Below are positions 20,018 through 40,093 of a DNA stretch of 64,000 nt, piece by piece. A program made the position numbers and the translations under genes. How positions within the stretch are numbered: position 1 is the stretch's first letter; every line of letters begins with the position of its first letter. The notes beneath the pieces were generated by a model. The model worked only from the letters and a program-made list of their open reading frames with translations, did no database searches and was not told the DNA's origin. This stretch comes from Halorhabdus sp. BNX81 (GTDB lineage: Archaea > Halobacteriota > Halobacteria > Halobacteriales > Haloarculaceae): contig NZ_CP107254.1 in the NCBI RefSeq assembly GCF_029229925.1, positions 1,426,001-1,490,000 on the forward strand, given 5' to 3'.

Positions 20018-20172
20018 ACCGAGCAGTTCGGTCGGCCCCGGCAAAGACCCGACGGTTCAGTCGGAACTCGCCGGCGACCGAACTCCCAGTTGCCCGTTCG
20101 GAGTGTGTGCATGGTCGAAAGCGGTGCAGTTCCGTAATCTGGGCCACCGGCGGAGCGAAACGCCGATCCTCG

Positions 20173-22924: not shown

Positions 22925-23923
22925 CTATTGGACACCTCCAACCGAAAATCCGTTCTCACCGACGTAGTTCAACAGCGCCGTCACCGCGGCCACGATGACG
23001 AAATAGATGGAGATGGCGGCCGCGGCCCGCAAAAACGGGTTGTTCGAGATGTTCTCGAAGAGGAACAACGAGAACGGACGTGGGCCACTCGCGTAGATCA
23101 CGTACGAGAAATTGAATTCGGCGGCCGCAAGCGTCCAGCAAATGATCGATCCCGAGATAATGCCCTGCTTTGCGCCGGGGACGATGACCCGGAGAAACGT
23201 GGTCGTCCAGGAAGCCCCGAGCGACCGGGCGCTTTCCTCCATGCTGCGCAAGTCCATCGATTCGAACGCCGACTGGACCGCAAGCACCATGTAGGGAATC
23301 TTCAGCAACGAGTAGCCAAGCACCAGCGCGATGATGCTTGGCAAGTTGGGGTAGGTTTTCAGGAAGGCGATCCCGAGGATGATGCCCGGGACGATCGGCA
23401 GGACGGCGAAGGTATTCATCCACCGCCGGCCGGTGAACTCGTAGCGAGTCACCGCGTAGGCGATCGGAACGCCGACGAGGAGGTTGATACACACGCCCGC
23501 AAGCGCCAGCAGGACGCTGAGTCCGAGCGCCATCGGGATCGGCGTCTGTACGGCAAAATCGAACGGGAAGTGCACCGTCAAATCGGGCACCACGGGCAGT
23601 TGGAGGACGAAAAGGATATCCGGCGCGACGAACGTCCAGAACCCCCCCATCCCGCGCTGTGCGCCGAGGTCGCCTCCCGCGATGCCGAGCGCCTGCGCCC
23701 AGTTATCCAGTGTGAGTCCGCCGCTGGGCAAGATACCGGTCCAGTTCTCGAAGAACGATCCGACGACGGTTATCAGCACTGGTCCGATGAGGAAAGCCAC
23801 GGTGGCAAACAAAAGCGCCGTGATCACCGTCCGGCCGTATCGGGCGGACAGCCGACCCAGACGGCCCGGCGTGCGATCGGGGACCGTCCCCGTTACGATC
23901 CCCGTCTCGTCGGGAGCGGTCAT
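22925..23923 (-). CDS. ABC importer permease 2
   Basis: 332 residues with six or seven membrane segments. The coupling (EAA) loop that contacts the ATPase is EESARSLGASWTTTFLRVIVPG (about residues 230-251). A long extracytoplasmic loop lies between the first and second helices (about residues 50-125). The reading frame remains open far upstream, but the ATG at 23923 overlaps the stop of permease 1 by 4 bases and gives a normal permease N-terminus. Confidence 0.9.
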   Translation of the reverse strand: MTAPDETGIVTGTVPDRTPGRLGRLSARYGRTVITALLFATVAFLIGPVLITVVGSFFENWTGILPSGGLTLDNWAQALGIAGGDLGAQRGMGGFWTFVAPDILFVLQLPVVPDLTVHFPFDFAVQTPIPMALGLSVLLALAGVCINLLVGVPIAYAVTRYEFTGRRWMNTFAVLPIVPGIILGIAFLKTYPNLPSIIALVLGYSLLKIPYMVLAVQSAFESMDLRSMEESARSLGASWTTTFLRVIVPGAKQGIISGSIICWTLAAAEFNFSYVIYASGPRPFSLFLFENISNNPFLRAAAAISIYFVIVAAVTALLNYVGENGFSVGGVQ

Positions 23924-24933
23924 CGCCCCACCTCCGCGCTGGTATAGCGCAGGCCGAGAAAGGTAAACAGGACCGTGAAGACAAAGAACACACTCGCGAG
24001 CGCGGAGGCGATGTTCAGTTCGTAGCCGACCCCGACCAGTTGATCGAACCGGAACGTCACGACTGACAGAGACTTCAGGACGAGGACGGTCCCGAAGATG
24101 GCGAGTGCCGTCCGGAATGTGAGGATGAGGGCACCGACGATACCCGGCCGAATCTGCGGGAGAGTGACGTACCGGAACGTCTGAAGGGGAGTCGCACCCA
24201 GCGATCGGGCAGCCTCCTCGGCATCGGTGTTGACCTCCGCGTAGGTGCCACGCAACAACAGCGTCGCCCGGGGAATCATCGAGTAGATGTAGCCGAAGAA
24301 CAGCCCGACGATGGCCAGGGTCGTTCCGGAAGGCTGGCCGGTGAGTTGGATGTCGACCGGTTCGGCACCGGTTATGACGGCGAAAACATTGGTCAGAAAC
24401 CCAGTCTGACCGAACAGCACGATCATCATGAAGGCGGCGACGATCCCTGGCAGGCTGATGGGGAAGGAAATGAGCGTTATTAGCATGTCCTTGCGGGGGA
24501 GATCGTACTTCTCGAGCCCGTGGGCGATAGCGATACCGAGCGCCACACTCGCGACGGTAGTAACCGCGCCGAACCACAGGGAGTTCCAGATGGTCCGCCC
24601 GTAGACCGGATTGACGGCCTCGCCCCCGACCGCGATGGCGGCCGAGAGGTCCGTCCCGACGACCGGGACGAACGCAGCAATGGAGGCGAACAATTGCCGA
24701 TAGGGCTCCAGGGTCCACCCCTGAACCTCGTAGAGGAACTGCTCGGAGACGCTGATCCGGAACATCTTCACCAGCGGAATGAAGGCCCCGAACGTCGCGA
24801 GGGCGAAAAACGGGACCGCCAGCAGCGCGATACGACGACGCTTGCGGCCCCGCTCGGTGGCTGGGAAAGCCAGCCGCCCCGGGCGGGTTTCCCTGATGCG
24901 ACCACGCAGGCCGGACTCCTCAAGTGTGGACAT
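23920..24933 (-). CDS. ABC importer permease 1
   Basis: 337 residues with six membrane segments. The first helix (IALLAVPFFALATFGAFIPLV) follows an N-terminal basic stretch. The EAA loop is EEAARSLGATPLQTFRYVTLPQ. It resembles the CysT/PotB class of permeases and is the partner of permease 2. It starts 4 bases after the stop of the binding-protein gene upstream (24938), so the first three genes form one transcription unit. Confidence 0.9.
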   Translation of the reverse strand: MSTLEESGLRGRIRETRPGRLAFPATERGRKRRRIALLAVPFFALATFGAFIPLVKMFRISVSEQFLYEVQGWTLEPYRQLFASIAAFVPVVGTDLSAAIAVGGEAVNPVYGRTIWNSLWFGAVTTVASVALGIAIAHGLEKYDLPRKDMLITLISFPISLPGIVAAFMMIVLFGQTGFLTNVFAVITGAEPVDIQLTGQPSGTTLAIVGLFFGYIYSMIPRATLLLRGTYAEVNTDAEEAARSLGATPLQTFRYVTLPQIRPGIVGALILTFRTALAIFGTVLVLKSLSVVTFRFDQLVGVGYELNIASALASVFFVFTVLFTFLGLRYTSAEVGR

Positions 24934-24937
24934 GGAC

Positions 24938-26113
24938 TCAGTAGCCGGTTAGGCCGACGCCCTGGCCGATTTCCTTGATGATGCTTTCCTGATTGTCGAT
25001 CAGTTTGCCATAGTCGACTTGGAACTCTTTGCCCTCATAACGGTCCTGGGATGGGAATTTTTCCGGCGTTTCGAGTTCGTCCGCGCGAATCGGGCGGACG
25101 AAGGCGTCGAAGAATTTTCGCTGCCCGTCCTTCGAGAGCACGTAGTCCATAAACAGCTTGCAGGCCTCAGGGTTGGGCGCATCCTTCAGCATTGCGTAGC
25201 CGTATGGCTGGTTCAGCGCACCCATGCCTTCGGGGCCGTTCAAGAACCTGACGCCGACCTGGTCCTCGGAGACGGAGTCCGCGTTGTACTTCAAGTCCAG
25301 CCCGGTATAGTCATATTCGACGAAGGTCTGGATCTCGCCTTTGCTGAACTTCTGCTCGACGTTACCGGCAAAGACTGCGCCCTTGCGCTTGACCTCGTTG
25401 TAGAAGTCGATGACCGGCTGGACATCGTCCAAGGAGCCGCCATAGGCGTTGTTGATCGAGAGCGCCCCAGCTAGCCCGACGGCTGCCTGCGGGGGCTGGT
25501 ACTGGGTCTTGGCAGCGATCTCCTCCTGTTTGAGATCCTCCCAGGTCTCGGGTGGATCGATATCCTGCTCCTCGTAGAGGTCCTTCCGGTAAATGACCGC
25601 GGTGGTCATCCGACGCGTCGCGGTGACGTGGCCGTCATCGGTCTTCAACGAGTCCGGCACCTTGTCGTAGTTGGCCGGCTTGTAGGGCTGGGTGAGCCCC
25701 TCGTTGCGAGCGATCACGCCGAAGGTGTAGCCACCGTTCATCGCCGAGTGATTCGGATTCTGGGCGTTCTGGCGGGCATGGGAGAGTGCCTCGCCGGAGG
25801 AGCGCTGGTCGTCGTTGAGTGAGACGTCGTACTCATTCTCGAAGCCCTCCATAAGCGCCTCCCAGTTCGACCACCCCGTCTGGACGGCGTAGATGAAGAG
25901 TTTATCCGGAAAGGTACTCGCTGAGACCGTCGTCCTATAATCACCGTAGCCGACTTCATGAGTCCCACCGCTACCACCCGATCCATCGGCGTCACCGGGA
26001 GCATCGGTACCCGCACCGCCGCCCCCGTCATCACTGTTCGCCGAACAGCCCGTGAGTCCAGCCCCGGCTGCGATACTGATACCAGTCAAGAACCGCCGTC
26101 TGGTGGAGTTCAT
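24938..26113 (-). CDS. Tat lipoprotein, ABC solute-binding protein (family 1)
   Basis: 391 residues. The N-terminus MNSTRRRFLTGISIAAGAG is a Tat signal ending in the lipobox LTGC, with C23 as lipid anchor; a Gly/Asp-rich linker follows (about residues 24-55). The mature protein is a type 2 binding protein with blocks such as DPPETWEDLKQEE and RPIRADELETP found in binding proteins of the PotD/thiamine/iron/aminoethylphosphonate classes. The first gene of the operon. The 37 codons of open frame upstream of 26113 are not used because the Tat motif fixes the start. Confidence 0.88.
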   Translation of the reverse strand: MNSTRRRFLTGISIAAGAGLTGCSANSDDGGGGAGTDAPGDADGSGGSGGTHEVGYGDYRTTVSASTFPDKLFIYAVQTGWSNWEALMEGFENEYDVSLNDDQRSSGEALSHARQNAQNPNHSAMNGGYTFGVIARNEGLTQPYKPANYDKVPDSLKTDDGHVTATRRMTTAVIYRKDLYEEQDIDPPETWEDLKQEEIAAKTQYQPPQAAVGLAGALSINNAYGGSLDDVQPVIDFYNEVKRKGAVFAGNVEQKFSKGEIQTFVEYDYTGLDLKYNADSVSEDQVGVRFLNGPEGMGALNQPYGYAMLKDAPNPEACKLFMDYVLSKDGQRKFFDAFVRPIRADELETPEKFPSQDRYEGKEFQVDYGKLIDNQESIIKEIGQGVGLTGY

Positions 26114-26147
26114 CCAGGTGGACCGGCGGACGAACCCAACAAAGGGG

Positions 26148-26155
26148 TTTATAAT
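26148..26155 (-). promoter_or_regulatory. TATA box of the ABC/phosphoesterase operon
   Basis: Minus-strand ATTATAAA lies 35-42 bases upstream of the binding-protein ATG and predicts a leader of about 10 bases. The box is flanked by GGGT on one side and ACCC on the other, a short inverted repeat that a repressor could occupy (inference). Confidence 0.55.
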
Positions 26156-28024
26156 ACCCGTATCGGGTAGTCGGTTCGGCTCATGCCCCCTGGTCTGTGA
26201 TCTAGTCTCAGTGGGAGCCAACAAGACCGATCACGAGCAGTTTATAGATTATTGACCCACTATAGAGACTCTACAGCGGGCGATGGATGAGATGAAACCC
26301 ACAGTGAGCAGTCCTCACTGACGGGACTCACCGCTCATTTCCTGACCGGTCACGACCAAGCGAGCTACTCAAAGTCCGTATCTCCGAGATCTCCCAAGGT
26401 TCGCGAGCACTCCGATCAGACCACCAACTCTCGGCACACACCTCATGAGACAATCAGTCTCAACTGCTGGAGAAGACTGAGATCATATAGCGATATTTGG
26501 TTTACGAGTGGCAGATGCGAGGATAATACGTATACCGACCATTGAGAACCCATCACTGAAAATTATAGTTTTGGGCTGGTCCTGGGGAACGAAGCACTGG
26601 ACAAGGGCCCATTGTAGGTCCTGGACTCGCCTCGAATGAACAATCAGCGCCATTCGCACGCCCATGGAGTCGCTACTGTGGGGCCCCCACACGAACTACG
26701 GTGAAAGCGCCCGAAAGGCGTGTCAATCGTTTCGTATACGGCCTGCGGATTCAACGTCGTACAACGACAATGGGACTCCAAAACGGACTGAAAGCTGAAC
26801 GTATCCTCCTCACGCTGTCCCGGGTTGCTGTGTGTAGACTACGACATGATGCAAGCACGCCTCATCGGTAGTGGTTAGTAAACGAATTCGGCTGCGAACA
26901 GCCAGAAATCCCCGGCCAGCGACCCTGGCGTCCGCGGCTATGCCGCGTCGCTCGGGAAAGCACCGCTCTGCCGGTGACGCACGCACTGGAGCGCAGCGAG
27001 CAGCGAGACCTCGGCTGTTCGACAGGGTTCGGCGCAACCCGTGAGAACGAAACGACCCGTCGAGGCCGCGGGAGCTGGGAATGCGGGGACTCGCTCTCTG
27101 AACTGCTTCCCGCTACCCGACACACGAGGCTCATCGACCGAAACTACCACGTCTCGGCTCCAGGACCCTCACCCCAAGTCCGCGTTGGGTTGGCAAGGCC
27201 ACCAGCAAACGTAGTGAAACCACGAGAGAAGTCCACATTAGAACTCTTCGGCGGTAGCTCATCGACAATCGCCCATTCGACATCCGGGGATCTGAGAAAC
27301 CGATACGCAGTGCAGGAATCCACGCCGATGAGTTCAAACGCTTAGATCCGCCCGAAAGACTCAACCAGAACCACATCTTTCCTCTTGGACTGCCCCGGTC
27401 GCTGGGAAATGGATTTGGGAGCGATAGATGAACGAAACGACGCCAAGATGAAAAGCATCCCTACGGAAGCAAAATTGTAACCGAAATATCGATCGACGGA
27501 GCCAATCGACATCGAAGCGTGATGTACCACAGAGGGTTCCAACCCCCAGACCACTGAAACCGTATCGAGAAACGGCCGGTAACCGAAGGCCTACAACCAA
27601 TCAGCTGTCCGCGGATGCAATGCCAACTCATCTCGAACGCTGACGTGCCGTGAGTGGTTTTGAACCAACATATTACTGCCGCCCCATCACGGATGGACGA
27701 TATCGGGACCGAAGATGCGCTCTGCCCCGGCCCCCATTCAGTATGGTGGAGCCGTGTTTTCGAACGATGACCCCCAGGGTTTGACCGCCGAAAAGAGGCC
27801 TTTGTGCACACGGGCATATTTGTTAGTGTATCGTCAAGACACGGCCCTGTGCAACGGTGAATTTAGTTATCCGTGTATATGCAACTATACGATACCTAGT
27901 ATACATAGATTTACGGAATAAAAACCGCATCCCTCGGGGAGAGATGGTGATATCTACACGGATAACCCCTCTTATCGGCAATTGTAGGGACAGATTGAAG
28001 GTGGGACGAATCGAACGACCGAGC
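26156..28024. other. Gene-poor region of about 1.9 kb, possible decayed mobile DNA
   Basis: No frame in this stretch has the acidic, GC3-rich composition of the surrounding genes; the open frames are short, overlapping and Ser/Arg-rich. Base composition is lower in GC than the flanks, particularly at 27350-27560 and 27810-27960. The interval 26930-27340 is more GC-rich and might be a relic of a transposon end or a structured RNA, but no transposase motif, terminal repeat or target duplication was found. At 27886-27903 there is a small inverted repeat, TATAC and GTATA, separated by eight bases. It precedes a recombinase gene pair, which is consistent with an integration hotspot. Confidence 0.4.
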
Positions 28025-28432
28025 ATGCCGGATGAAGAGTCGACGTCCCGAACAGCTGTCAAGACGTACGTCCCGGCCTACCAAAAAGATGCCTGGCAGT
28101 CCCATGCCGACGAACTTGGGATGAGCCAAAGCGAGTTCGTCAGGACGATGGTCCAGGCCGGACGGCGGCATTTTTCAGAGGACGAGACAGTTGACGCTAC
28201 TCGGACACCTCAGCCGAAACCCACTGACGTTAGCCAGACAGGCGAAGGTGGCCTGGCCGATCGCGTCCGCGAGCAGCTGTCAAGCGCGGGCGCACTAACA
28301 TGGGACGAGCTGGTCGCCGCCTTGACAGACGACATCGAGGCACGGCTCGAAGATACACTGGACGAACTCCAGGAGAAAAACGCCATCAAGTATAGTGGCC
28401 GTGAGGGCGGCTACACCCTGGTCGAACCATGA
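28025..28432 (+). CDS. Ribbon/winged-helix small DNA-binding protein paired with integrase (DUF5805-like)
   Basis: 135 residues. The N-terminal ~55 residues (TAVKTYVPAYQKDAWQSHADELGMSQSEFVRTMVQAGRR, described in two pieces around 10-29 and 30-48) look like a ribbon-helix-helix domain; the C-terminal part from about residue 75 (LADRVREQLSSAGALTWDELVAAL...) reads as a winged helix ending in GYTLVEP. It precedes the recombinase with ATGA overlap, so the pair is cotranscribed. In haloarchaea this type of protein commonly accompanies XerC/D-like recombinases and may act as an accessory or directionality factor (inference). The frame continues upstream but 28025 gives the conserved N-terminus. Confidence 0.75.
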   Translation: MPDEESTSRTAVKTYVPAYQKDAWQSHADELGMSQSEFVRTMVQAGRRHFSEDETVDATRTPQPKPTDVSQTGEGGLADRVREQLSSAGALTWDELVAALTDDIEARLEDTLDELQEKNAIKYSGREGGYTLVEP

Positions 28433-29490
28433 GTGCCGGTACTGCCATCCCAGAGGAGGTTGAAGATCCGATCGAGTACTTCCTGACGGATATTACCTAC
28501 CAGGGAAAGAGCCAGCGGACGAGTGACGCTTACGAACGGGTCCTCAGGGACTTCGAAGCATCACTCCGTGAGAACGGCGAGAAGCCCCTCGCTGTGGCCT
28601 CACATCGTGATTGTATGGCGTGGATCCATTCCCAGCGAGAAGAACTCTCAGAGAGCACTGTGGCCACGTACGCGTCCTATCTACACCGATTTTACGCCTA
28701 TATGACCCAGATCGGCGTCTTCGATTCGAATCCGATGGCGATCGTCGTCGAAGAGATGGACGAACGGATCGACGCTGATCCGGCTCGTCGCGACGTTTCG
28801 ATCCCGGAAATGCAGGGCTTCGTCTCCGGAATCGATCATCCGCTGGACCGTGCGGTAATCGTCACGTTGCTGAAGACCGGGATGCGAGTCGGCGAGCTGT
28901 GTAATCTCGATCAGCGCGACCTCCATCTGTCCGATGATCCCCGCGAATCGGTAACGACACGACCCGCCCTCGATGGGCGACCCGACTCACTGTTCGTCGC
29001 AAGTGAGCCCTCCCGGGGTGCAACAGTGAATGGCGAGCAGCGGGCTGCCTCGAACAAGCGCCGGCGAGACACAGTCGTTCCTGTCGATGACGATCTGGCC
29101 GAGACGCTCCGGGCCTGGCTGGATGTTCGTCCTGACCCGGTTTCGTCCGCGCGTCCGCTGTTTACCAGTACGACGGACAACTGGGGCCAGCGGATCACGA
29201 CTGATGGGGTACGTCACATCGTCACCAGCCACGCAAGTGAGCATGGGTGGTACGACAACGGTGGCGGTGTCGAGGAAAACGTCACTCCACATTACTTCCG
29301 GCACTTCTTCACCACACACCTTCGAGATCGAACCGGTGACCGTGGGATCGTGAAGTATCTGCGCGGTGACGTCGCCCAGGATATCATCGATACGTACACC
29401 CACGATTGGGGAGATCGGGTTCGTGACGTATACGAAAATCACATTTATCAGCTTCCGGTGGCTGCATATTGTACGATGCCAGAGACATAA
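28429..29490 (+). CDS. Tyrosine recombinase / integrase (XerC/D-like)
   Basis: 353 residues. The N-terminal SAM-like DNA-binding domain (about residues 10-105) is followed by the catalytic domain. Visible active-site residues are R153 in TGMRVGE, H288 and R291 in HYFRHFF, H325 in TYTHDW and the nucleophile Y335 in VRDVYENHIY. All are present, so the enzyme should be active in site-specific strand exchange. It could serve an integrated element or be a resident Xer-type recombinase; no element genes lie next to it and no att or dif site was identified with confidence. Confidence 0.9.
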   Translation: MSAGTAIPEEVEDPIEYFLTDITYQGKSQRTSDAYERVLRDFEASLRENGEKPLAVASHRDCMAWIHSQREELSESTVATYASYLHRFYAYMTQIGVFDSNPMAIVVEEMDERIDADPARRDVSIPEMQGFVSGIDHPLDRAVIVTLLKTGMRVGELCNLDQRDLHLSDDPRESVTTRPALDGRPDSLFVASEPSRGATVNGEQRAASNKRRRDTVVPVDDDLAETLRAWLDVRPDPVSSARPLFTSTTDNWGQRITTDGVRHIVTSHASEHGWYDNGGGVEENVTPHYFRHFFTTHLRDRTGDRGIVKYLRGDVAQDIIDTYTHDWGDRVRDVYENHIYQLPVAAYCTMPET

Positions 29491-29562
29491 ATCACATATC
29501 GCTATATAGATATCGGCCCCATCCGGGACGCATGGTTGCACCCACAAACGCGACAATGAGCG

Positions 29563-31908
29563 CTAGCTGATCGGCTCGATACTGGTTTGGGTGAGGTACG
29601 AGCGAGCGGAGCGCGGTACGGCCTTCGTGTCCGTCACGTCGAACGCAGCAGTGTCGACGATATCGGCCGCGGATGTGCCGACGCGGAGTTCGTATGGCCC
29701 CTCTTCGACGACGAGGCTCATGGCCAAATCGTGGTAGGCAAGCCGAGTCATGTCGATTTCGAAGCTGACGCGCTTTGACTCGCCGGGTTCGAGATGCACG
29801 CGCTCGAAGCCGAGCAGTTCCTGGACGGGACGGGCCTGGTTCGGGTTCTCGGCGTGCTGGTAGAGCTGGACGACGTCGTCACCGGCGACGTCACCTGCAT
29901 TCGTAACTGTGATAGTCGCAGTAAGTGTCCCCATCGGCGCGACCGTCTCGGCGTCGAGTTCGAGATCGCCGTACTCGAAGTCGGTGTAACTCAGCCCGTA
30001 GCCGAACGGATACAGCGGCTCGCCATCGTCGTAGACGTGCTCCTCGTTCGCGGAATTGGGTTTGCGGCTGTAGTAGACTGGCTGCTGCCCGACGGATTTA
30101 GGGATCGAAAGTGGCAGGTGTCCGCTCGGATTGTGGTCGCCGAACAGCACGTCCACGATTCCGTTGCCGCCCTCCTCGCCGGGTAGCCACGCGTGAAGCA
30201 GGGATGAGACTGTCTCGGCAATCTCCGGGATCGCGTGGGGTTTGCCGCTGACCAGCACGACGATCACCGGCGTCTCCGTCTCGGTGAGGCGGTCGAGCAG
30301 GTCCGCCTGCACGCCCGGCAGCCCGAGATCGGTGACGTCGCTCCCCTCACCGCTGGTCGGGATCATCGACTGGTTGCGGTGCGCGAGATCGTCGTCGGAG
30401 AGATCGACGGCCGAGCGTGCGCCGACGCAGGCGATCGCCACGTCCGCATCCGTGGCTGCCTCGGCAGCCATCTCGAACTGCTCGGTCGAGGGGCCGGACG
30501 TGGTACAGCCTTCGACGTATTCGACGGCGAACCCAGCGTCTATACCGCGCGTTTCGAGGGCGTCACGTGGCGTCGTCGCCTCGAAGTCGGTTTCTTCCTG
30601 ATTGAAGTGCGCGGGGTATGCGTAATCACCTAGGAGTTCCTGATCGTCGTCGGCCTTCGGGCCGAGGAGGGCGACCGTGTCGAGGTCGCCTCCCAACGGA
30701 AGCAGCCCATCGTTTTCCAGCAGCGTGATCGACTTACGGGCCGCCTTCTGGGCAAGTCTGGCTTGTTCGTCGGTGTTGAAGGCTTGCGGGGCAGCTTCGG
30801 GATCGACGAACGGATCATCGAGCACCCCGGTTTCGATCTTCGCCCGGAGGACGCGACCGACGGCGGTGTCGATCGTCGCTTCGCTTACCTCTCCCGCCTC
30901 GAACGCTTCGAGCAGTGGGTCACCGTAGCAGTCGGTATTTGGCAACTCGACATCGAGACCGGCCTCCAGTGCGGCCACGCCGGCCTCGCGTTTGTTGGCG
31001 GCGACGCCATGTTCGCCATCGAGCAGAGCGACGCTGCCGTAGTCCGAGATGACTGGCCCCTCGAATCCCCACTCTCCCCGGAGGACGTCCGTCAGGAGCC
31101 ACTCGGAACTGGCACAGGGGACGCCGTCGATGTCGTGATACGCGTTCATGATCGAGGCGGCGTCGCCGTTCCGGATCACCGCCTCGTAGGGGTAAAGGTG
31201 GACCTCCCGGAGTTCACGCTCACCGAGCTGGACCGACGAGCGGTTCTTGCCGCCTTCCCCCATTGCGTGGCCAGCAAAGTGCTTGAGTGTGGCGTGGACG
31301 TCACGACCGTCTCCCCGAACGGTGTCCGTGGCCTGTAATCCCGAAACGTAGGCACGCGCCATCGCTGCCACGAGCTGGGGGTCTTCGCCGAACGTCTCCT
31401 CGACGCGGCCCCAGCGGAGGTCGCGCGCGACGTCGAGCACCGGCGAAAGCCCGTGGACCGCACCGATCGCCTGCAGCTGGGTTCGGACCACGCCGGTGAC
31501 CGATTCGAGCAGTTGCGGCGACCACGTGCTCGCCATGCCGATCATCTGCGGGAAGACGGTTCCCTGGGGACCCATGTAGCCGCTCAGGCACTCCTCGTGT
31601 GGAATCGCCGGAATCCCGAGCCGCGTTTCCTCGATGAGGTACTCCTGGAGTTGGTTCGTGAGTAGCGCGGCCCGTTTCGGATCGAGATCGCCCTCGCCGG
31701 CAGTGCGGGTGAGATGACCGATCCCGTCGCGCAGCTGTGCTTCGACGCCGTCTCTCTCGAGCGTTTCGTCCTCGATGAAATGCGACGGATTGGCCGAGCC
31801 GAGTTGTGCAACCTTCTCCTCGATGGTCATTCGGTCGAGCAGGTTCGAAACCCGTCGTTCAGTGCGTCCCGTGGTTTTCCGCTCCGAATGATCGTCTGAT
31901 GGGGCCAC
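29563..31908 (-). CDS. GH3-family glycoside hydrolase (beta-glucosidase/xylosidase type)
   Basis: 781 residues, cytosolic (no signal peptide). GH3 features: LKHFAGH (substrate-binding K-H, about residue 208), the nucleophile aspartate in VISDYGSVALL (about residue 290), the second alpha/beta domain with the GSDVTDLGLPG region, and a C-terminal fibronectin-III-like domain that begins after PFGYGLSYTDFEYG. GH3 enzymes remove beta-linked glucose, xylose or arabinose from the non-reducing end with retention. In this cluster it probably trims side chains of imported oligosaccharides. It lies 66 bases downstream of the rhamnosidase gene on the same strand. The exact sugar is not predictable. Confidence 0.92.
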   Translation of the reverse strand: MAPSDDHSERKTTGRTERRVSNLLDRMTIEEKVAQLGSANPSHFIEDETLERDGVEAQLRDGIGHLTRTAGEGDLDPKRAALLTNQLQEYLIEETRLGIPAIPHEECLSGYMGPQGTVFPQMIGMASTWSPQLLESVTGVVRTQLQAIGAVHGLSPVLDVARDLRWGRVEETFGEDPQLVAAMARAYVSGLQATDTVRGDGRDVHATLKHFAGHAMGEGGKNRSSVQLGERELREVHLYPYEAVIRNGDAASIMNAYHDIDGVPCASSEWLLTDVLRGEWGFEGPVISDYGSVALLDGEHGVAANKREAGVAALEAGLDVELPNTDCYGDPLLEAFEAGEVSEATIDTAVGRVLRAKIETGVLDDPFVDPEAAPQAFNTDEQARLAQKAARKSITLLENDGLLPLGGDLDTVALLGPKADDDQELLGDYAYPAHFNQEETDFEATTPRDALETRGIDAGFAVEYVEGCTTSGPSTEQFEMAAEAATDADVAIACVGARSAVDLSDDDLAHRNQSMIPTSGEGSDVTDLGLPGVQADLLDRLTETETPVIVVLVSGKPHAIPEIAETVSSLLHAWLPGEEGGNGIVDVLFGDHNPSGHLPLSIPKSVGQQPVYYSRKPNSANEEHVYDDGEPLYPFGYGLSYTDFEYGDLELDAETVAPMGTLTATITVTNAGDVAGDDVVQLYQHAENPNQARPVQELLGFERVHLEPGESKRVSFEIDMTRLAYHDLAMSLVVEEGPYELRVGTSAADIVDTAAFDVTDTKAVPRSARSYLTQTSIEPIS

Positions 31909-31974
31909 AACGACGGTCCGTGCTCGGCACGCGGAGTTGAACGTTTCGGAGGCAGGGGGGACCGGGGAAGACGG

Positions 31975-34900
31975 TTACCGGACCGAGAAATCGAACTGGC
32001 CGGCGTCGACAGCCAGGACAACCACGTCATCCTCGTAGTCGATCGATCGGACTCCCTCGGGTGTGGGAGTCGCCTCGACGGATAGATCGACTCCCGATTC
32101 GGACACCGACCTACCGGCCGCGTCGGGGAGCCTGATGGTCGCCGACGTGTTCCAGGGCACCCACACCGACAGATCGTAGCCCCCGCCGGTCCGCTCCCAG
32201 TCGACGGCCAGTTCACCGTTGCGTGTCTCGTAGCTGGCTTCGACCCATTCCAGGTCCTCGACGAGCGAGGGCGCGATCGTGACGTGGTCAGTCACTGGCC
32301 GGTCCCCGATATGGATCCCGGCCAGCACCTCGTAGAAGTATTCCGAGACGTGTGTGAGCGGGGAGTGGTTCAGCGAGTTCATGCCCGAGCCGATGCTGTC
32401 GTCCGAATTCCAGCGCTCCCACATCGTGGTCGCGCCGTTACGCGCCATGTACACCCACCCCGGCCGTTCGGGCTGGCTGACAACCTCGTATGCCAGGTCG
32501 TCGTAGCCGTGTTCGGCGAGCGTCTGAATGAGTGGGCGAGTTCCCAGGAACCCGGTCTTGAGCTTCCCGCCGTCGGAACGGACCTCCTCTGCCAGCCCAG
32601 CCGCGACCGTCTCGACGTGTTCGTCGGGGACGAGCCCGAGGAACAGCGCCACGGCGTAGGAGGCCTGCGTCCCGGGCCGATAGCGGCCCGCCGCGGGTTC
32701 GAAGAACTCCTCGTTGAACGCCGTCCGGAGCCGATCAGCCCACTCGCGATAGCGGGCGGCGTCGCCATCATTGTCGACCACATCGGCGATCTTCGCGAGA
32801 ACAGCCGTGATCTGGTAGACGAACGCTGTCGTGAACAGATCGTAGGGGAGGCCACGCCGACCGTCGGTGTTCTCGAAGGCCAGCCAGTCGCCGAACTTGC
32901 CGTAGGATGGGGGAACCAGATCGTCCTCGGTCACCGACAACCAGTACTCGACGTGTGCGCGCATGCCCTCGAACTGTTCTTCGAGAATGCGCTCGTCGCC
33001 GTCGTGGCGGTAGCGATACCAGGGAATCACGACGCGGGTAATCGTCCACGTCGGGTCGCCCGGGTTCTCCGGGGCCTTATTCGGAATGACGTCCGGCGCG
33101 TACCCCAGGTCGCTCGCCGCATCGTCGTGATCGTGCGCCCACTTCTCGTGGAAGCGTGCGGCGTCGAAGTTGAACGCAAGCGACTGGGCGGCGATCTGGG
33201 CGTCACCGGTCCAACCGAAGCGTTCGTCGCGCTGTGGACAGTCCTCCGGGATCGAGTGGGCGTTACCGGCCAGCCCCCAGACGGCGTTGTGCTGGACCTG
33301 GTTCAGGTCGTCATTCGAGCAGGCGAACTCCCCGCGTCGATCGATCGCCGTGTGGACGACCTTCGCCGTGACGGCGTCGGGATCAATATTGCCTGGGTAT
33401 CCTTCGATCTGGGCGTACCGGAACCCGTGGTAGGTGAAGCGGGGTTCATACGTCTCGCTATCCGCTCCACGCGCGACATACGTATCAGTCGCGTCGGCAC
33501 CGCGGAGATCGACCGTCGCGAGGTTGCCCTCCTCGGTCAGCGTTTCGGCGTGCTGGAACGTGATCTCGTCGCCAGCCGCCGGGTCCTCGATTTCGATTTC
33601 GAGCCACCCGGTGAGGTTCTGGCCGAAGTCGAGGATCGGCCCGTCCGGGTGTTCGTGGACCGCCTCGACGTCGAACGTCTCGACAACTTCCATGGGTTCG
33701 ATCCGCTCAGGTCTGAGCGTTCCTCCCGGGGAGTCGACGATTTGGGCCCCGTCCCACCCGGACGCGTCGAAGCCCGGCTGTCGCCAGCCGTCGGCTTCGC
33801 GGCGGGCATCGTAGGTCTCGCCGTCGTAGATGTCGTTTTCGACGATCGGGCTCTCCCGGGCCGCCCAGTCGCCGTCGGTAGATATCCGGCGGGTCGTCCC
33901 GTCCGTGAACTCGACGGAGAGGACGGCCCTGGCTCGCGGGGAGCCGTCGGCAACCCAGTAGGCCCCGCGTTTGGCGAACCAGCCGCGACCGAGCCACAGC
34001 CCGACGGCGTTGTCGCCCTCGGTCAGCTGCTCGGTGACGTCGTACGTCGAGTAGAGGACACGCTTCTCGTACTCGGTCCAGGCCGGGTCGAGCACGCGGT
34101 CGCCGACTTTCTCGCCGTTGATCGAGAACTCGCCGTACCCGACCGCAGCGACGTGCGCACGGGCCCGTTCGACCGGCTTCGCCAGTTCGAACTCCCGGCG
34201 GAGCTGCGGCGACGTCGACGCCAGTCGCGAGTCGGTGTGGCCGTCCAGGAGATGCTCGCGGCCCCAGGTCGCCGTCTCGACCGACGAGGCGGTGTCCACC
34301 GCTGCACTCTCGGTCAGGTCTGCCCCATCGCCGTCCCGGACGGTGACGCCGGCGAGGGCGAAGCACTGCCAGGGGTGGACTTGCTCGGTCTTGCGGGAGT
34401 CGGCCGCGTCCCGGCGCGTCGAGGGGACGAACTCGAAGAGGTCGGTCGCCGTGATGCGGAGGTACCGCCCCCCGGCGTCGAGGCCGTCGTGGGTCTGGGG
34501 CGGCGTCGCGAGGTCGGTCGGGAGCCCATCGGTCGTGCTTTCGCCCTGGTCCGGCATCCTCCGCTCGGCGACGACGGTACTCTCCGCGAAATCGGGGTCC
34601 TCGGACAGTTCGATCCGGTAGGTCTCGGGGAAGCCAAAGCCAGCGAGTGGGTTCGACGACCAGTGGATCGTCACCGCCACATCGTCGGGGGTCCGCACGA
34701 CCGAGATCGGATCGGCCGGCTGGAGCGTGATCTCCTCGACCGAGCGGGTCTCACCGAGGTCGATCTGGACCCACTCCTCGGCGTCCTCCTCGGGACGGTG
34801 CCACTGGCTGCGCCAGCCGTCGGTGTCGCCGACGCCGGGCTGGTGGGCGATCCACTCGCCCGACCAGTCCGCGGGACGGAGCGCCGTCGCGAACCTCGCC

Positions 34901-35229
34901 GCTTCGGCCCAGTCGGTCTCGCCTTCGTCCGTCCAGAGCTTCACCGACCAGTGGTACGTGGTGTCGGCCGCGAGGTCGGGACCGTCGTAGACGACGTTCG
35001 TCGCGCTGTCCGAGGTGATCTTTCCGGAATCCCACAGCGTCCCTTCGCCGTCAGCGACCGCGTCGGGGTCGCGACCGACGACGAGGCGGTAGGCCCGCTG
35101 GACCGCGCCGCGACGATCCGTCACGATACGCCAGGAGAAACGGGGCGGACGCGACGGGTCGACGTTCGTCGGCGATGTCTCGTACTCGACGCGGAGGTGA
35201 GTCGGTGTCGCGTCCGCCGGTGTGGCCAT
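31975..35229 (-). CDS. GH78 alpha-L-rhamnosidase
   Basis: 1084 residues, normal for the bacterial multidomain form. Order: N-terminal beta domains (HLRVEYETSPTNVD...PRFSWRI), a discoidin-like carbohydrate-binding segment (about 150-330), the domain with GYGEFSINGEKVGDRVLDPAWTEYEKRVLYSTYDV (two blocks around 365-400), LDFGQNLTGWLEI, then the (alpha/alpha)6 catalytic barrel with DCPQRDERFGWTGDAQ, which contains the acidic catalytic pair, and SLNHSPLTHVSEYFYEVLAGI near its end, and a C-terminal beta domain. It releases rhamnose from rhamnogalacturonan or rhamnosides. No signal peptide is seen, so it acts inside the cell. The ATG at 35229 is preferred over one 33 bases upstream. Confidence 0.95.
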   Translation of the reverse strand: MATPADATPTHLRVEYETSPTNVDPSRPPRFSWRIVTDRRGAVQRAYRLVVGRDPDAVADGEGTLWDSGKITSDSATNVVYDGPDLAADTTYHWSVKLWTDEGETDWAEAARFATALRPADWSGEWIAHQPGVGDTDGWRSQWHRPEEDAEEWVQIDLGETRSVEEITLQPADPISVVRTPDDVAVTIHWSSNPLAGFGFPETYRIELSEDPDFAESTVVAERRMPDQGESTTDGLPTDLATPPQTHDGLDAGGRYLRITATDLFEFVPSTRRDAADSRKTEQVHPWQCFALAGVTVRDGDGADLTESAAVDTASSVETATWGREHLLDGHTDSRLASTSPQLRREFELAKPVERARAHVAAVGYGEFSINGEKVGDRVLDPAWTEYEKRVLYSTYDVTEQLTEGDNAVGLWLGRGWFAKRGAYWVADGSPRARAVLSVEFTDGTTRRISTDGDWAARESPIVENDIYDGETYDARREADGWRQPGFDASGWDGAQIVDSPGGTLRPERIEPMEVVETFDVEAVHEHPDGPILDFGQNLTGWLEIEIEDPAAGDEITFQHAETLTEEGNLATVDLRGADATDTYVARGADSETYEPRFTYHGFRYAQIEGYPGNIDPDAVTAKVVHTAIDRRGEFACSNDDLNQVQHNAVWGLAGNAHSIPEDCPQRDERFGWTGDAQIAAQSLAFNFDAARFHEKWAHDHDDAASDLGYAPDVIPNKAPENPGDPTWTITRVVIPWYRYRHDGDERILEEQFEGMRAHVEYWLSVTEDDLVPPSYGKFGDWLAFENTDGRRGLPYDLFTTAFVYQITAVLAKIADVVDNDGDAARYREWADRLRTAFNEEFFEPAAGRYRPGTQASYAVALFLGLVPDEHVETVAAGLAEEVRSDGGKLKTGFLGTRPLIQTLAEHGYDDLAYEVVSQPERPGWVYMARNGATTMWERWNSDDSIGSGMNSLNHSPLTHVSEYFYEVLAGIHIGDRPVTDHVTIAPSLVEDLEWVEASYETRNGELAVDWERTGGGYDLSVWVPWNTSATIRLPDAAGRSVSESGVDLSVEATPTPEGVRSIDYEDDVVVLAVDAGQFDFSVR

Positions 35230-35289
35230 GGCCGCGGATGAGGATGGCAGCGGGCAAAACACTGTGGGTCGCGGGACAGCCCCTCACTC

Positions 35290-36771
35290 TCAGTCCTCGA
35301 TCTCGCCGGTCAACAGATCGACGTGGTGACCGAGGTGCTCTTCGAGAAACGCGTAGTGATCGTCCTCGTATTCGCGAAGCGTCGCCAGCAGGTCGTCTTT
35401 GAACCGGAACTCCCCGTTTTCATCCGTGGCTGACAGCACCGAGCCGTAGGTGATGTGTAGCAGCTGTCGGCCGTCGTCGCCCTCGAGGATCGTGGGGAGT
35501 TCGTCGTCCGCCAGGTCGTCGATGTCCGGCACGTTCGAGAGGTCGGTGTTGACGTGGTAGGTGGCCTTGTCCTCCTCGAAGCGTTCGAGGGCGAACGCGT
35601 GAATCTCCCGATAGAGATCGGGATCGTGCTCGGCGACGACGCGGATCGCCTCGAGATAGCTCGTCCCGGCGGTCTTGACGTGCTGGTAGTCGCTGGCGTA
35701 CTTCTCAAAGAAGGGGTAGATGCTGAACTTGTCCGACCCCGAGTGCAGCGAAAGGCGGTAGGGGCCGTAGGTCTCGGCGATCGCGACGTGTCCCCTGAGA
35801 TGTTCCTCGAACTCGTCGCGGTCGCCGATGTAGTCGATGCCCTTCTCCAGGGAGCCGACGAACCGCGGGGCGAGGCTGGTCACCTCGACGCCGCGGCGGT
35901 CGAGTTCGCTAGCGATGAGGGCGTGTTCGAGGTGAGTCGTCGGCGTCTCGGTCTCGTCGACGGAGACCTCGAAGTCGAAGTCGCCGTCGACCGCCGCTTC
36001 GACCCAGCCATAGAGCTTCTCGGCAAACTCGATGGCCGCGTAATACTTCACCGCCGCCCGCTTGAGTTCGATCTCAGAGAAGGAGTCCGACCAGGTGTAC
36101 CCGTCAGTCTCGGCCTCGAAGGTCTCCCCAGCGTAGCGATCAAGGATCGCCTCGCTGTCGTCGAGGTCGGCGAAGGCATCCTCGACTGCAGCCTCGCTCA
36201 TCGAGTCCGCGTCGGCGACGACGTGCTCGCTCGGATCGCAGGTGAACATCGTGAAGCCGACCCCGGCCGTGCGTTCGACGTCCTCGCGGGCCATGAGGTG
36301 GTCGGCGTCGGCGACGAATCCGCCCTCGTAGCCCTCTTCGAAGACGCCGAAGATTGCCGTCGCGAGGACGTCCTTAGGCGAGCGCCCGGTTCGATCCATC
36401 TCGCGGATCGACTGCTGGGCGAACACCGGGACGAGGCCAGAGTCACGCACGGCGCGGACGTGGCCCGGCGTCGCCAGACCGATCCGGTCGCCGAAGCCGA
36501 AGGCCGACTGCCGACCGGCGGTTGTCGGTTCGAGCCAGGGGAAGACATCGGCCAGCGCCGTCGCGTTCCCGTAGGTCAGCGGGAAGACCTGGCCGTCGCC
36601 CTGGACTGTGCCACCGTCGAAGTCCGTGGCCGCCGGTCCCTCGACGTAGAGACGGCGGATGCCGTCCGCATCGTTGACGAGGGCGAACGTCGAGTCCCCC
36701 TCGCTGTAGACCGATCGTTCGTAGACAGTCACGTCCGGGGGTAACGCCGCCTGGAAGTCTTCGGTCGCCAT
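35290..36771 (-). CDS. uxaE: Tagaturonate/fructuronate epimerase (UxaE family)
   Basis: 493 residues. This family converts D-tagaturonate to D-fructuronate (C4 epimerisation), linking galacturonate breakdown to the glucuronate route. Recognisable blocks are GNATALADVFPWLEP, FGFGDRIGLATPGHVRA, FVADADHLMARED and LHSGSDKFSIYPFFEKYAS, the last containing the metal/substrate site of the family. It is 60 bases upstream of the rhamnosidase on the same strand and faces uronate isomerase across the divergent region, so both steps of the galacturonate branch are encoded together. The start at 36771 removes nine weakly supported residues. Confidence 0.85.
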   Translation of the reverse strand: MATEDFQAALPPDVTVYERSVYSEGDSTFALVNDADGIRRLYVEGPAATDFDGGTVQGDGQVFPLTYGNATALADVFPWLEPTTAGRQSAFGFGDRIGLATPGHVRAVRDSGLVPVFAQQSIREMDRTGRSPKDVLATAIFGVFEEGYEGGFVADADHLMAREDVERTAGVGFTMFTCDPSEHVVADADSMSEAAVEDAFADLDDSEAILDRYAGETFEAETDGYTWSDSFSEIELKRAAVKYYAAIEFAEKLYGWVEAAVDGDFDFEVSVDETETPTTHLEHALIASELDRRGVEVTSLAPRFVGSLEKGIDYIGDRDEFEEHLRGHVAIAETYGPYRLSLHSGSDKFSIYPFFEKYASDYQHVKTAGTSYLEAIRVVAEHDPDLYREIHAFALERFEEDKATYHVNTDLSNVPDIDDLADDELPTILEGDDGRQLLHITYGSVLSATDENGEFRFKDDLLATLREYEDDHYAFLEEHLGHHVDLLTGEIED

Positions 36772-36880
36772 GGCGGGTCGTTCTCCGGTGGGTCCCATAA
36801 GCGTTCATCCAGCCGGGCAGTGATATGAGCGAACGCAGAATTCGTTCACCAACGGCGTCGCAGAATCGACCGTTCAGTGA

Positions 36881-36919
36881 AGGGATTCGTGCTGGCGCTC
36901 GTGCTCATGACGAATCCCT
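36881..36919 (-). repeat. Perfect 10-base inverted repeat (hairpin)
   Basis: AGGGATTCGT at 36881-36890 pairs exactly with ACGAATCCCT at 36910-36919 across a 19-base loop. It overlaps the last codons of the 49-residue membrane protein gene. In the minus-strand transcript no U-run follows, so it is not a classical terminator, but it could be a processing or stability element between that gene and uxaE. Confidence 0.5.
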
Positions 36920-37054
36920 GAATTCCGTGTCTTCCACCTCCTGATCGTACCCCTCTTTGAGCCACTTATACAGGAACGACACGACGAGTGCGAGAATCGG
37001 CAGGAGGATGATCAGCGACCCGACCAGCATCTCGGTTCCACCTGGTATCGGCAT
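36905..37054 (-). CDS. 49-residue single-helix membrane protein
   Basis: Small open frame that starts MPIPGGTEMLVGSLIILLP and ends ...EDTEFRDSS. One membrane helix spans about residues 9-30 (MLVGSLIILLPILALVVSF), followed by a positively charged KWLKEGY and an acidic C-terminal tail. A TATA box 25-32 bases upstream of the ATG supports a real, leaderless gene. It precedes uxaE on the same strand with a 133-base gap that contains a hairpin. Haloarchaeal sugar and transport loci often encode such one-helix proteins; a transporter accessory role is only a guess. Confidence 0.7.
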   Translation of the reverse strand: MPIPGGTEMLVGSLIILLPILALVVSFLYKWLKEGYDQEVEDTEFRDSS

Positions 37055-37078
37055 ACGTCGGAGTTTTTTCCTATGCTG

Positions 37079-37087
37079 TTATATTTC
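37079..37087 (-). promoter_or_regulatory. TATA box of the divergent pectin-cluster region
   Basis: Minus-strand GAAATATAA is centred 29 bases upstream of the ATG at 37054. The stretch 37079-37096 is the only strongly AT-rich part of the divergent region, so regulation of both arms of the cluster is likely to act here. Confidence 0.6.
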
Positions 37088-37206
37088 TTTTTTGGTAGTT
37101 GTTGGGAGCTAACGACAAGCCATGAGGGGATCGGTGAACAGACGAAGAGACGGACCGAACCACGCGGTGGGGAAGATTGATTCGACCCTTCGCCGAAGGC
37201 CCTGCC

Positions 37207-38571
37207 ATGGCGTTCATCGACGACGAGTACCTCCTCGAGACGGAGACGGCCGTCGAACTGTACGAGGCGATCGGCGACGCACCGATCCTGGACCCGCACA
37301 GTCACGTGGACCTGCAGGAAGTCGTCGCAAACGACGGCTGGTCGGACATCTGGGAAGTCCAGGGGGCGACCGATCACTACGTCTGGGAACTCATGCGAAA
37401 GCGCGGGGTCCCCGAGGCGAAGATCACTGGTGACGCCTCGAACAAGGAGAAGTGGCTCGCCCTCGCGGAGATTTTCCCCGAATTGGTCGGCAATCCGACC
37501 TACGAGTGGGTCCACCTCGACCTCAAGCGCCGATTCGGGATTGAGAAACGGATTTCGCCCGAGACAGCCGAGGAGATCTGGATGGAGACGAAAGACCTCC
37601 TCGATCAGCCCGAGTACAAGCCCCAGGCACTCCTCGAGGACATGAACGTCGAGGTGATGTGCTCGACCGACGATCCGACGGATGACCTCGCTCTTCACGA
37701 ACGTGCGGCCGAAGAACTCGACGGGATCGCGGTCAAGCCGACCTGGCGGCCCGACCGGGCGATCAAGATCGCCGACGACGGCTGGCGGGATTTCGTCGAT
37801 GAACTCGAAGAAGCGCGCGGGATCGAGACGACTACGCTCGATGGGTTCCTCGCCGCAATGGAAGACAGCCACGACCACTTCGACGACCACGGTTGCGTCG
37901 CAAGTGATCTGGGAATCAAGCAGCCGATCTCGAAACCCGTCAGCGAGGAGCGCGCCGCGCGGATCTACAAGCGAGCAATCGCCGGCGCGAACCTCGATCC
38001 CGACGAAGTCCGGGACTTCGAGGCGTTCATGCTCGAGCAGATCGGCGAGTGGAACCGCGAAGCCGACTGGGTGACCCAGCTCCATATCGGGGCTGTCCGG
38101 GACTACCGTCAGGACCTCTACGAGGAGTTGGGTCCCGACACCGGCGGCGACATCTCCACACAGGACATCGAACTCGTCGATGCGCTGGAATACTTCCTCA
38201 ATACCTTCGACAGAGAGCTCGATATCGTCCTCTACACCGTCGACCCGACGCACTACCCGACGACAGCGACGATCGCGCGGGCGTTCCCGAACGTCAGCCT
38301 CGGCGCAGCCTGGTGGTTCAACGACAGCCCGTTCGGGATGGAACAACAGCTGAAGTACGTCGGGACGGTCGATCTCCTCTCGAACTATGCGGGGATGGTC
38401 AGCGATTCTCGAAAGCTCGTCTCGTATGGCTCGCGCTTCGAGATGTTCCGCCGGAGTCTCGCCAACGCCGTCGGCGACATGGTCGAACGCGGGCAGGTTC
38501 CCAAGCCGGAGGCCCGCGACCTCGTCGAACGGATGGCGTACGACCGGCCGAAGGAACTGTTCGGATTCTGA
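37207..38571 (+). CDS. uxaC: Uronate isomerase
   Basis: 454 residues, amidohydrolase superfamily. It isomerises D-galacturonate to D-tagaturonate and D-glucuronate to D-fructuronate. The metal-binding DPHSHVDLQEV (about residue 28) and the C-terminal blocks LYTVDPTHYPTTATIARAFPNVSLGAAWWFNDSPFGM (two pieces around 345-380) and SDSRKLVSYGSRFEMFRR are UxaC signatures. The ATG at 37207 gives the family start; an in-frame ATG ten codons upstream is less likely. It is followed 77 bases later by the GH4 gene in the same direction, so the free galacturonate released by GH4 would be its substrate. Confidence 0.95.
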   Translation: MAFIDDEYLLETETAVELYEAIGDAPILDPHSHVDLQEVVANDGWSDIWEVQGATDHYVWELMRKRGVPEAKITGDASNKEKWLALAEIFPELVGNPTYEWVHLDLKRRFGIEKRISPETAEEIWMETKDLLDQPEYKPQALLEDMNVEVMCSTDDPTDDLALHERAAEELDGIAVKPTWRPDRAIKIADDGWRDFVDELEEARGIETTTLDGFLAAMEDSHDHFDDHGCVASDLGIKQPISKPVSEERAARIYKRAIAGANLDPDEVRDFEAFMLEQIGEWNREADWVTQLHIGAVRDYRQDLYEELGPDTGGDISTQDIELVDALEYFLNTFDRELDIVLYTVDPTHYPTTATIARAFPNVSLGAAWWFNDSPFGMEQQLKYVGTVDLLSNYAGMVSDSRKLVSYGSRFEMFRRSLANAVGDMVERGQVPKPEARDLVERMAYDRPKELFGF

Positions 38572-38648
38572 TCGACTCCGCGCCAGACCGCTCTCTCCGA
38601 GAAGCCGGAACCAGTACTTTCCTGGGCTCTGCTTTCCTGGTGCTTGCT

Positions 38649-40082
38649 ATGCGTGAGTCCCACGAGGAAGACGGCCGGTTCGAGGACGTGACGATCGGGT
38701 TCGTCGGCGGTGGTTCTCGCGACTGGGCGGCGAAAATGATGACGGACCTTGCCACGCAGGACACCCTCCACGGCGAGGTTCGCCTCTACGACGTCGATCG
38801 GGCGAGCGCCGAACAGAACGCGCGCCTCGGGAAACTGATCCAGGACCGCGAGGAGGCGATCGCCGAGTGGGACTACCGGGCCGTCCCGTCCCTCGCCGAC
38901 GCGCTCGACGGCGCGGACGTCGTTGTCCTCTCGACGCAGGACCCGCCGGCCGAGACATTCGCCCACGACCTCGACATCCCCGCCGAGTACGGCATCTACC
39001 AGTCCGTCGGCGACACGGTCGGCCCCGGTGGGACGTTCCGAGCGATGCGGGCCATCCCCCAGTACCGCGAGATCGCGGCCGCGATCCGCGAACACTGCCC
39101 CGACGCCTGGGTACTCAACTACACCAACCCGATGACCGTCTGTACCCGGACGCTCTACGAGGAATTCCCTGATATACAGGCCGTCGGGCTCTGTCACGAG
39201 GTGCTCCACGTCAAGGACGATCTCGCCGAGTACGTCGAGAAACACCGAAACTTGGGGGAGGGTCAGTCGGTCAGCGGCGACGACCTCCGGGTGAACGTCA
39301 AGGGAATCAACCACTTCACCTGGATCGACGACGTCCGCTTCCGGAGCGAGGACGTCTTCGACGTGATCGACGCCGAACTCGATTCCCAGCGCCCACTCCT
39401 CGGCGGGTTCGAACCCGGCGACCTCGACGACGAGACGTTCTACGTCAACAACGACCGGATCGCGCTGGATCTCTATCGTCGCTTTGGGATCTTTCCCGCC
39501 GCGGGCGACCGCCACCTCGCCGAGTTCGTCCCGTGGTACCTGAACATCGACGATCCGAAAGACGTCCAGCGGTGGGGCATTCGCCTAACGCCGAGCGAGC
39601 ATCGGATCGAGCACTGGCCGGCGAACGAACGGGAGCGCGAGCGCTATTTGGCGGGCGAAGAAGCGTTCGAGTTCACCGACACCGGCGAGAAAATGGTCGA
39701 TATCATGACGGCACTGCTGGGCGGCGAGGAACTCGTCACGAACGTCAACCTTCCCAACCAGGGGCAACTTTCCGGGGTTCGCGAGAGTGCGGTCGTCGAG
39801 ACGAACGCGCTGGTGACGGACGACGACATCGTCCCGCACGCCGCTGGGGAGCTTCCGGAGCAGGTCCGGAGCATGGTCAGGACACACGTGAGCAACCAGG
39901 AGACGCTCATCGAGGCCGGGTTCGACGGCGACCTCGATCTGGCGTACCGGGCGTTCCTGAACGATCCACTCGTGACGCTGCCGCCCGAGGACGCCCGAAA
40001 CCTCTTCGTCGACCTCGTCGACGCTGAACGCCCCTATCTCACTGACTGGAATCTAGACGAGGCAACAGTCCTCGAAAGATAA
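38649..40082 (+). CDS. GH4 glycosidase with CHEV motif, probable alpha-galacturonidase
   Basis: 477 residues. GH4 enzymes use NAD+ and a divalent metal (usually Mn2+) and cleave by oxidation-elimination. The NAD-binding N-terminus is IGFVGGGSRDWAAKMMTDL, the metal cysteine lies in GLCHEVLH, and NYTNPM and GDRHLAEFVPWYL are typical. The four-residue motif at the metal site divides GH4 by substrate: CHSV in alpha-galactosidases, CNxP in 6-phosphoglycosidases, CHEV in alpha-galacturonidases. This protein has CHEV, which with the adjacent uxaC and uxaE points to removal of galacturonate from pectic oligosaccharides. The frame is open far upstream into uxaC, and 38649 is the first ATG that gives the GH4 N-terminus. 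Confidence 0.85.
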   Translation: MRESHEEDGRFEDVTIGFVGGGSRDWAAKMMTDLATQDTLHGEVRLYDVDRASAEQNARLGKLIQDREEAIAEWDYRAVPSLADALDGADVVVLSTQDPPAETFAHDLDIPAEYGIYQSVGDTVGPGGTFRAMRAIPQYREIAAAIREHCPDAWVLNYTNPMTVCTRTLYEEFPDIQAVGLCHEVLHVKDDLAEYVEKHRNLGEGQSVSGDDLRVNVKGINHFTWIDDVRFRSEDVFDVIDAELDSQRPLLGGFEPGDLDDETFYVNNDRIALDLYRRFGIFPAAGDRHLAEFVPWYLNIDDPKDVQRWGIRLTPSEHRIEHWPANERERERYLAGEEAFEFTDTGEKMVDIMTALLGGEELVTNVNLPNQGQLSGVRESAVVETNALVTDDDIVPHAAGELPEQVRSMVRTHVSNQETLIEAGFDGDLDLAYRAFLNDPLVTLPPEDARNLFVDLVDAERPYLTDWNLDEATVLER

Positions 40083-40093
40083 CGCCGGGTCGG

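Follow-up and report, generated by a model that had tools for sequence, protein, structure and literature searches.

Gene content of the locus

We analysed a 64,000-nucleotide stretch of the single-contig 2.83-Mb genome of Halorhabdus sp. BNX81 (bases 1426001–1490000; hereafter the window, from whose first base the features are numbered), which carries at 29563–40082 genes for five enzymes, namely GH3, GH78, UxaE, UxaC and GH4. Judged from sequence, this cluster probably forms the intracellular end of galacturonide-oligosaccharide utilisation, in which galacturonides would be trimmed and the galacturonate converted by UxaC and UxaE. Its features are the following:

29563–31908, minus strand: GH3 of the beta-xylosidase/alpha-L-arabinosidase type, 781 residues, no export signal (PF00933/PF01915/PF14310)
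31975–35229, minus strand: GH78 alpha-L-rhamnosidase, 1084 residues from the M at 35229, frame open from 35262 (Pfam)
35290–36798, minus strand: UxaE tagaturonate/fructuronate epimerase, 502 residues, alternative start at 36771 (PF16257, 549 bits, full length)
36905–37054, minus strand: open reading frame of 49 residues with one hydrophobic segment, not conserved as a cluster member
36799–37206, no strand: intergenic region from which the uxaE-GH78-GH3 and uxaC-GH4 units diverge, presumably containing their promoters (from gene layout)
37207–38571, plus strand: UxaC glucuronate/galacturonate isomerase, 454 residues (PF02614, 495 bits)
38649–40082, plus strand: GH4, predicted LplD-like alpha-galacturonidase, 477 residues, CHEV at residues 182–185 (PF02056/PF11975)

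Pfam and NCBIfam scans agree with the arrangement given in a preliminary description of this DNA, with GH3, GH78, UxaE and the 49-residue open reading frame on one strand and UxaC and a GH4 containing GLCHEV on the other. The starts of UxaC and GH78 were corrected to 37207 and 35229; that of GH4 is most likely 38649, the longest open reading frame, from 38049, overlapping uxaC out of frame. UxaC clears the cut-off of NCBIfam PRK02925 (532 versus 387 bits), and both the N- and the C-terminal domain of GH4 (PF02056 and PF11975, 161.7 and 144.4 bits) exceed theirs. GH78 consists in Pfam of Ig_Rha78A_N and four Bac_rhamnosid domains; it matches the solved enzymes 6i60 and 3w5m with 610 and 483 bits and keeps the Glu of DER and that of MWERW. 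As for GH3 (255.6 bits in the Pfam scan), the beta-xylosidase 7zb3 is its closest solved relative, and its top NCBIfam model, NF052329 (beta-xylosidase/alpha-L-arabinosidase), scores 675 bits, below the cut-off of 1050. Neither an N-terminal hydrophobic stretch nor a Tat signal was evident in any of the five enzymes, in agreement with the earlier remark that the glycosidases lack export signals.

UxaE and its bacterial relatives

UxaE aligns with the solved tagaturonate/fructuronate epimerase 9lhu (446 bits) and with the Cohnella enzyme 6il9 (376 bits). Its residues E133 and D166 fall on the two catalytic residues named for the Cohnella enzyme (PMC11194214), the numbering of chain and paper having been matched through a one-residue shift between 6il9 and 6ila, as read from the alignment. 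The altronate dehydratase domain PF04295 was not found in this genome; UxaE is therefore the sole predicted exit for tagaturonate. Since the enzyme is needed only where tagaturonate forms, its presence points to galacturonate as the source.

Only 3 of 391 Halobacteria genomes hold UxaE, and all three are Halorhabdus, out of seven genomes of this genus. In the UxaE tree the three sequences join a planctomycete (support 98/95) and then Thermotogota and Halanaerobiaceae (99/97), every other row being bacterial. Both the restriction of UxaE to these genomes and its nesting among bacterial sequences indicate a probable acquisition from bacteria, but the tree set, collected through short peptide patterns from one query, does not allow a donor to be named. 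In one bacterial locus (L008), SDR, UxuA-like and UxaC-like genes come after UxaE, the neighbours being named from their sequence starts only. On balance, we favour the view that some Halorhabdus species possess a UxaE-dependent galacturonate route of bacterial provenance that was combined with uronate and glycosidase genes native to haloarchaea, a single epimerase linking galacturonate with the existing archaeal glucuronate pathway.

Two clades of haloarchaeal GH4 with the CHEV motif

The closest solved relative of the window GH4 is Bacillus subtilis LplD (3FEF), with 363 bits versus 97.7 for the next solved GH4 and only 43 for the Thermotoga GH4 1vjt/7br4. The top curated model is named alpha-galactosidase and scores below its cut-off, so automatic naming may mislead for this protein. 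GLCHEV occupies residues 180–185, with the cysteine at 182.

The sampled GH4s of Halobacteria divide into those with CHSV (31 loci) and those with CHEV, and the latter divide again. One CHEV clade, to which the second GH4 of this genome belongs, lies with UxaC and UxuA in 18 of 18 sampled loci, which were picked for UxaC linkage, and often with GH67 and GH3 as well. Relatives in the other clade are 55–58% identical to the window GH4 and have a PL11 rhamnogalacturonan lyase, GH28, GH78, PL1-like or PF04295 gene nearby in 14 of 20 loci, versus none of the 18 (p 4e-6). Five of these 20 loci were chosen for PF04295, and excluding them leaves 9 of 15 versus 0 of 18 (p about 1e-4, calculated by hand); same-genus loci are not independent, and 8 of the 13 genera have the markers.

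CHEV is present in all 19 sampled GH4s on the glucuronate-linked side of the tree as well. We therefore rejected the motif as sole proof of a galacturonidase, as it is common to both clades. The GH4 assignment in the preliminary description stands through kinship with LplD and clade membership, while the step from CHEV to alpha-galacturonidase does not hold on the motif alone. Phylogeny and context favour a galacturonide as the predicted substrate. More generally, the motif rule needs correction: haloarchaeal CHEV marks two GH4 clades, with pectin-linked and glucuronate-linked contexts, which phylogeny can separate. The haloarchaeal loci L151, L152 and L153 each contain two adjacent CHEV GH4 genes in opposite orientation. 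In each pair only one gene falls within the glucuronate-linked clade, a hint that the substrates differ.

These data also bear on the alternative of a second glucuronate/glucuronoxylan module, with GH4 as an alpha-glucuronidase, UxaC acting on glucuronate, and UxaE accessory or working in reverse. UxaC serves both uronates; all sampled haloarchaeal GH4s beside UxaC have CHEV; nine of the 18 genomes of the UxaC-linked clade have neither UxaE nor PF04295; and the window GH3 shares 69% identity with its counterpart in the glucuronate locus of this genome (69–70% across Halorhabdus loci of that kind). However, no role is known for UxaE in a pure glucuronate pathway; the window GH4 is kept out of the UxaC-linked clade with a support of 100/99 and is nearest to the pectin-linked one; and its best solved relative is LplD rather than the Thermotoga GH4. 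Moreover, the genome already holds a full glucuronate locus, with a second CHEV GH4 at 773–775 kb near a second UxaC, UxuA, SDR, GH67 and GH3. We therefore regard a second glucuronate module as improbable. Beside this second GH4, downstream of a GlcS-like sugar-binding protein, lie split transketolase genes and a transaldolase-like gene (L077, 6141–8795; all but GlcS named by reading the sequence), which likely serve pentose use from xylan.

Conservation and origin of the parts

Synteny in Halorhabdus was assessed with genomes that include two which we take to be H. utahensis and H. tiamatea. The same five-enzyme block, in the same gene order, is found in H. utahensis, with an identity of 94% over 27955–36809 and 93% over 37169–40093. 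Relative to this species, each of the five enzyme genes shows purifying selection, with dN/dS values of 0.10–0.20. In H. amylolytica, UxaE and UxaC are divergent and stand beside UxuA and a D-mannonate oxidoreductase, where the contig ends.

The stretch between the divergent units (36810–37168, 359 bp, 54% GC) is replaced in H. utahensis by about 45 bases of unrelated sequence, and the divergent intergenic region of that species measures only about 94 bp. The 49-residue open reading frame lies in this replaced stretch and is therefore not among the conserved parts of the cluster; the other six genomes of the genus hold no clear relative of it (best E 0.06, at chance level), and Pfam and NCBIfam scans found nothing for it. 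Thus, the small membrane protein announced previously exists as a frame with one hydrophobic segment, but it is strain- or species-specific and has no counterpart in H. utahensis. A XerC/D-like tyrosine recombinase gene (28429–29490) adjoins the cluster and occupies the same place in H. utahensis; there is no tRNA in the window.

The cluster appears to be a mosaic, with UxaE of bacterial origin and UxaC, GH3 and GH4 having haloarchaeal kin. UxaC is 60–66% identical to the UxaCs of haloarchaeal glucuronate loci outside the genus, and the family of GH4 is haloarchaeal. For GH78, solved bacterial enzymes such as 6i60 are closer than the remaining haloarchaeal GH78s that were found (24–28% identity over most of their length).

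Proposed pathway

The proposed pathway builds on family membership, kinship with characterised enzymes, the catalytic residues conserved in UxaE and GH78, purifying selection, and the locus context of relatives. Imported oligosaccharides would be trimmed in the cytoplasm, as the preliminary description had it, a reading that the analysis supports. GH4 would take off terminal alpha-D-galacturonate by the NAD- and metal-dependent mechanism of its family, GH78 would remove alpha-L-rhamnose, and GH3 beta-xylose or alpha-L-arabinose. Galacturonate would then be isomerised to tagaturonate by UxaC and epimerised to fructuronate by UxaE, in place of the UxaB/UxaA branch through altronate; this sequence of steps, put forward before, is supported. 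Finally, an SDR reductase and UxuA would convert fructuronate to mannonate and this to 2-keto-3-deoxygluconate (KDG), with flux presumably in this direction and the two divergent units presumably co-regulated.

The genes for these last steps lie at 765–768 kb, where a UxuA family protein (above the PRK03906 cut-off) and an SDR are encoded, so that all steps to KDG are present in the genome. The SDR has no specific model; its H. amylolytica counterpart exceeds the cut-off for D-mannonate oxidoreductase (375 versus 281 bits). The pathway illustrates a route by which an archaeon could gain a carbon source, a single bacterial epimerase feeding an existing glucuronate pathway.

Source polymer and import

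Several observations weigh against galacturonide utilisation as the role of the cluster. The window GH4 joins the pectin-linked clade with a support of only 92/79, and its specificity could be broader, because glucuronate is the context of the other CHEV clade of haloarchaea. Rhamnogalacturonan lyase PF18370, GH28 and RhaA are absent from all seven Halorhabdus genomes, and GH88/105 (PF07470) occurs among them in H. tiamatea only and not in this genome; as to L-rhamnose catabolism, the missing RhaA concerns one route, the oxidative haloarchaeal route having been outside the search. No importer was identified: neither a transporter nor a UxaR-like regulator was recognised at the locus, the CUT1, TRAP and SSS transporters of the genome having been outside the search. 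In addition, haloarchaea with many pectinase genes failed to grow on pectin, polygalacturonate or rhamnogalacturonan (PMC9726719).

The genome does encode, at 1.215–1.218 Mb (locus L160, 779–3814), a 1011-residue exported protein with a Tat-like RRTFLRAF start, repeated modules and a C-terminal PL1-like domain. The domain scores a weak 22.4 bits against PF00544 (cut-off 24) and 49 bits against the pectate lyase 9buj, and the protein is 42–54% identical to proteins beside pectin-linked haloarchaeal GH4s. Two probable PL1 pectate lyases have been reported in H. utahensis (PMC3102087). The earlier statement that the locus lacks a pectate lyase and a transporter is borne out for the locus itself; a candidate lyase is encoded elsewhere, and so, presumably, is the importer.

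Plant rhamnogalacturonan I, whose oligosaccharides the preliminary description took as substrate, is a very unlikely source. GH78 adjoins an LplD-type GH4 here, and a GH78 accompanies a GH4 of this clade in three to four further haloarchaeal loci; however, the window GH78 is only 24–28% identical to the GH78s of those paired loci over most of their length, and the lyase, GH28, RhaA and GH88/105 distribution given above leaves rhamnogalacturonan as an extra step not supported in this genome.

Galacturonide utilisation would be kept, with another parent polymer, if the galacturonides came from rhamnose- and uronate-bearing exopolysaccharides of brine cyanobacteria or algae and not from plant pectin. 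Such polymers would likewise be fitting targets for GH78, GH3 and a galacturonidase, and the genus lacks the rhamnogalacturonan lyase, GH28 and RhaA expected for pectin. Haloarchaeal enrichments on pectin, moreover, failed (PMC9726719). On the other hand, relatives of the window GH4 adjoin PL11 and GH28 genes, and the Tat-type exported PL1-like protein belongs to a family found beside those GH4s; we consider this source rather unlikely, if worth keeping in mind. Whichever polymer is involved, the cluster offers a compact test case for whether any haloarchaeon uses pectic sugars.

An ABC system at 20173–26224 comprises a substrate-binding protein, two permeases, a PotA/PhnT-like ATPase and a metallophosphoesterase, within a stretch (20058–27955) that has no syntenic counterpart in H. 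utahensis. It was considered as the importer and rejected, its best models being of the phosphonate/polyamine type and H. utahensis lacking the stretch at this position. The CbiM/CbiQ-type ECF genes at 40–42.6 kb are of the metal-uptake type and were judged unrelated.

Comparison with known systems

The UxaR pectin/galacturonate regulon of Thermotoga maritima comprises a UxaC-UxaE-UxuB-UxuA route, the cytoplasmic exo-polygalacturonase PelB and the AguEFG transporter (PMC3750489). As in that regulon, galacturonate is predicted here to reach KDG without altronate, and imported galacturonides to be broken down in the cytoplasm; unlike in T. maritima, with its PelB and AguEFG, the exo-enzyme would be an LplD-type GH4, and the lower pathway lies 0.7 Mb away.

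With B. subtilis LplD (3FEF) the GH4 shares the CHEV motif, and its H. utahensis orthologue is about 41% identical to LplD over 445 residues. The neighbours of LplD in B. subtilis are lpl genes, whereas the window GH4 is an archaeal, acidic protein accompanied by UxaC, UxaE, GH78 and GH3.

The haloarchaeal glucuronate locus (UxaC, UxuA, SDR, CHEV GH4, GH67, GH3) has been reported in part for H. utahensis (Huta_0869-0871; PMC3102087). Its UxaC and GH3 are paralogues of those in the window and its GH4 is of the same LplD-like group, yet it has no UxaE and no GH78, and its GH4 belongs to the other clade.

A search of the literature returned no paper linking UxaE with an archaeon, and no archaeal genus other than Halorhabdus, among the 391 Halobacteria genomes searched, showed the bacterial-type UxaE route. 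Within the papers searched, such a pathway would be the first described in an archaeon; each enzyme is of a known kind, and it is their combination in an archaeon that is unusual.

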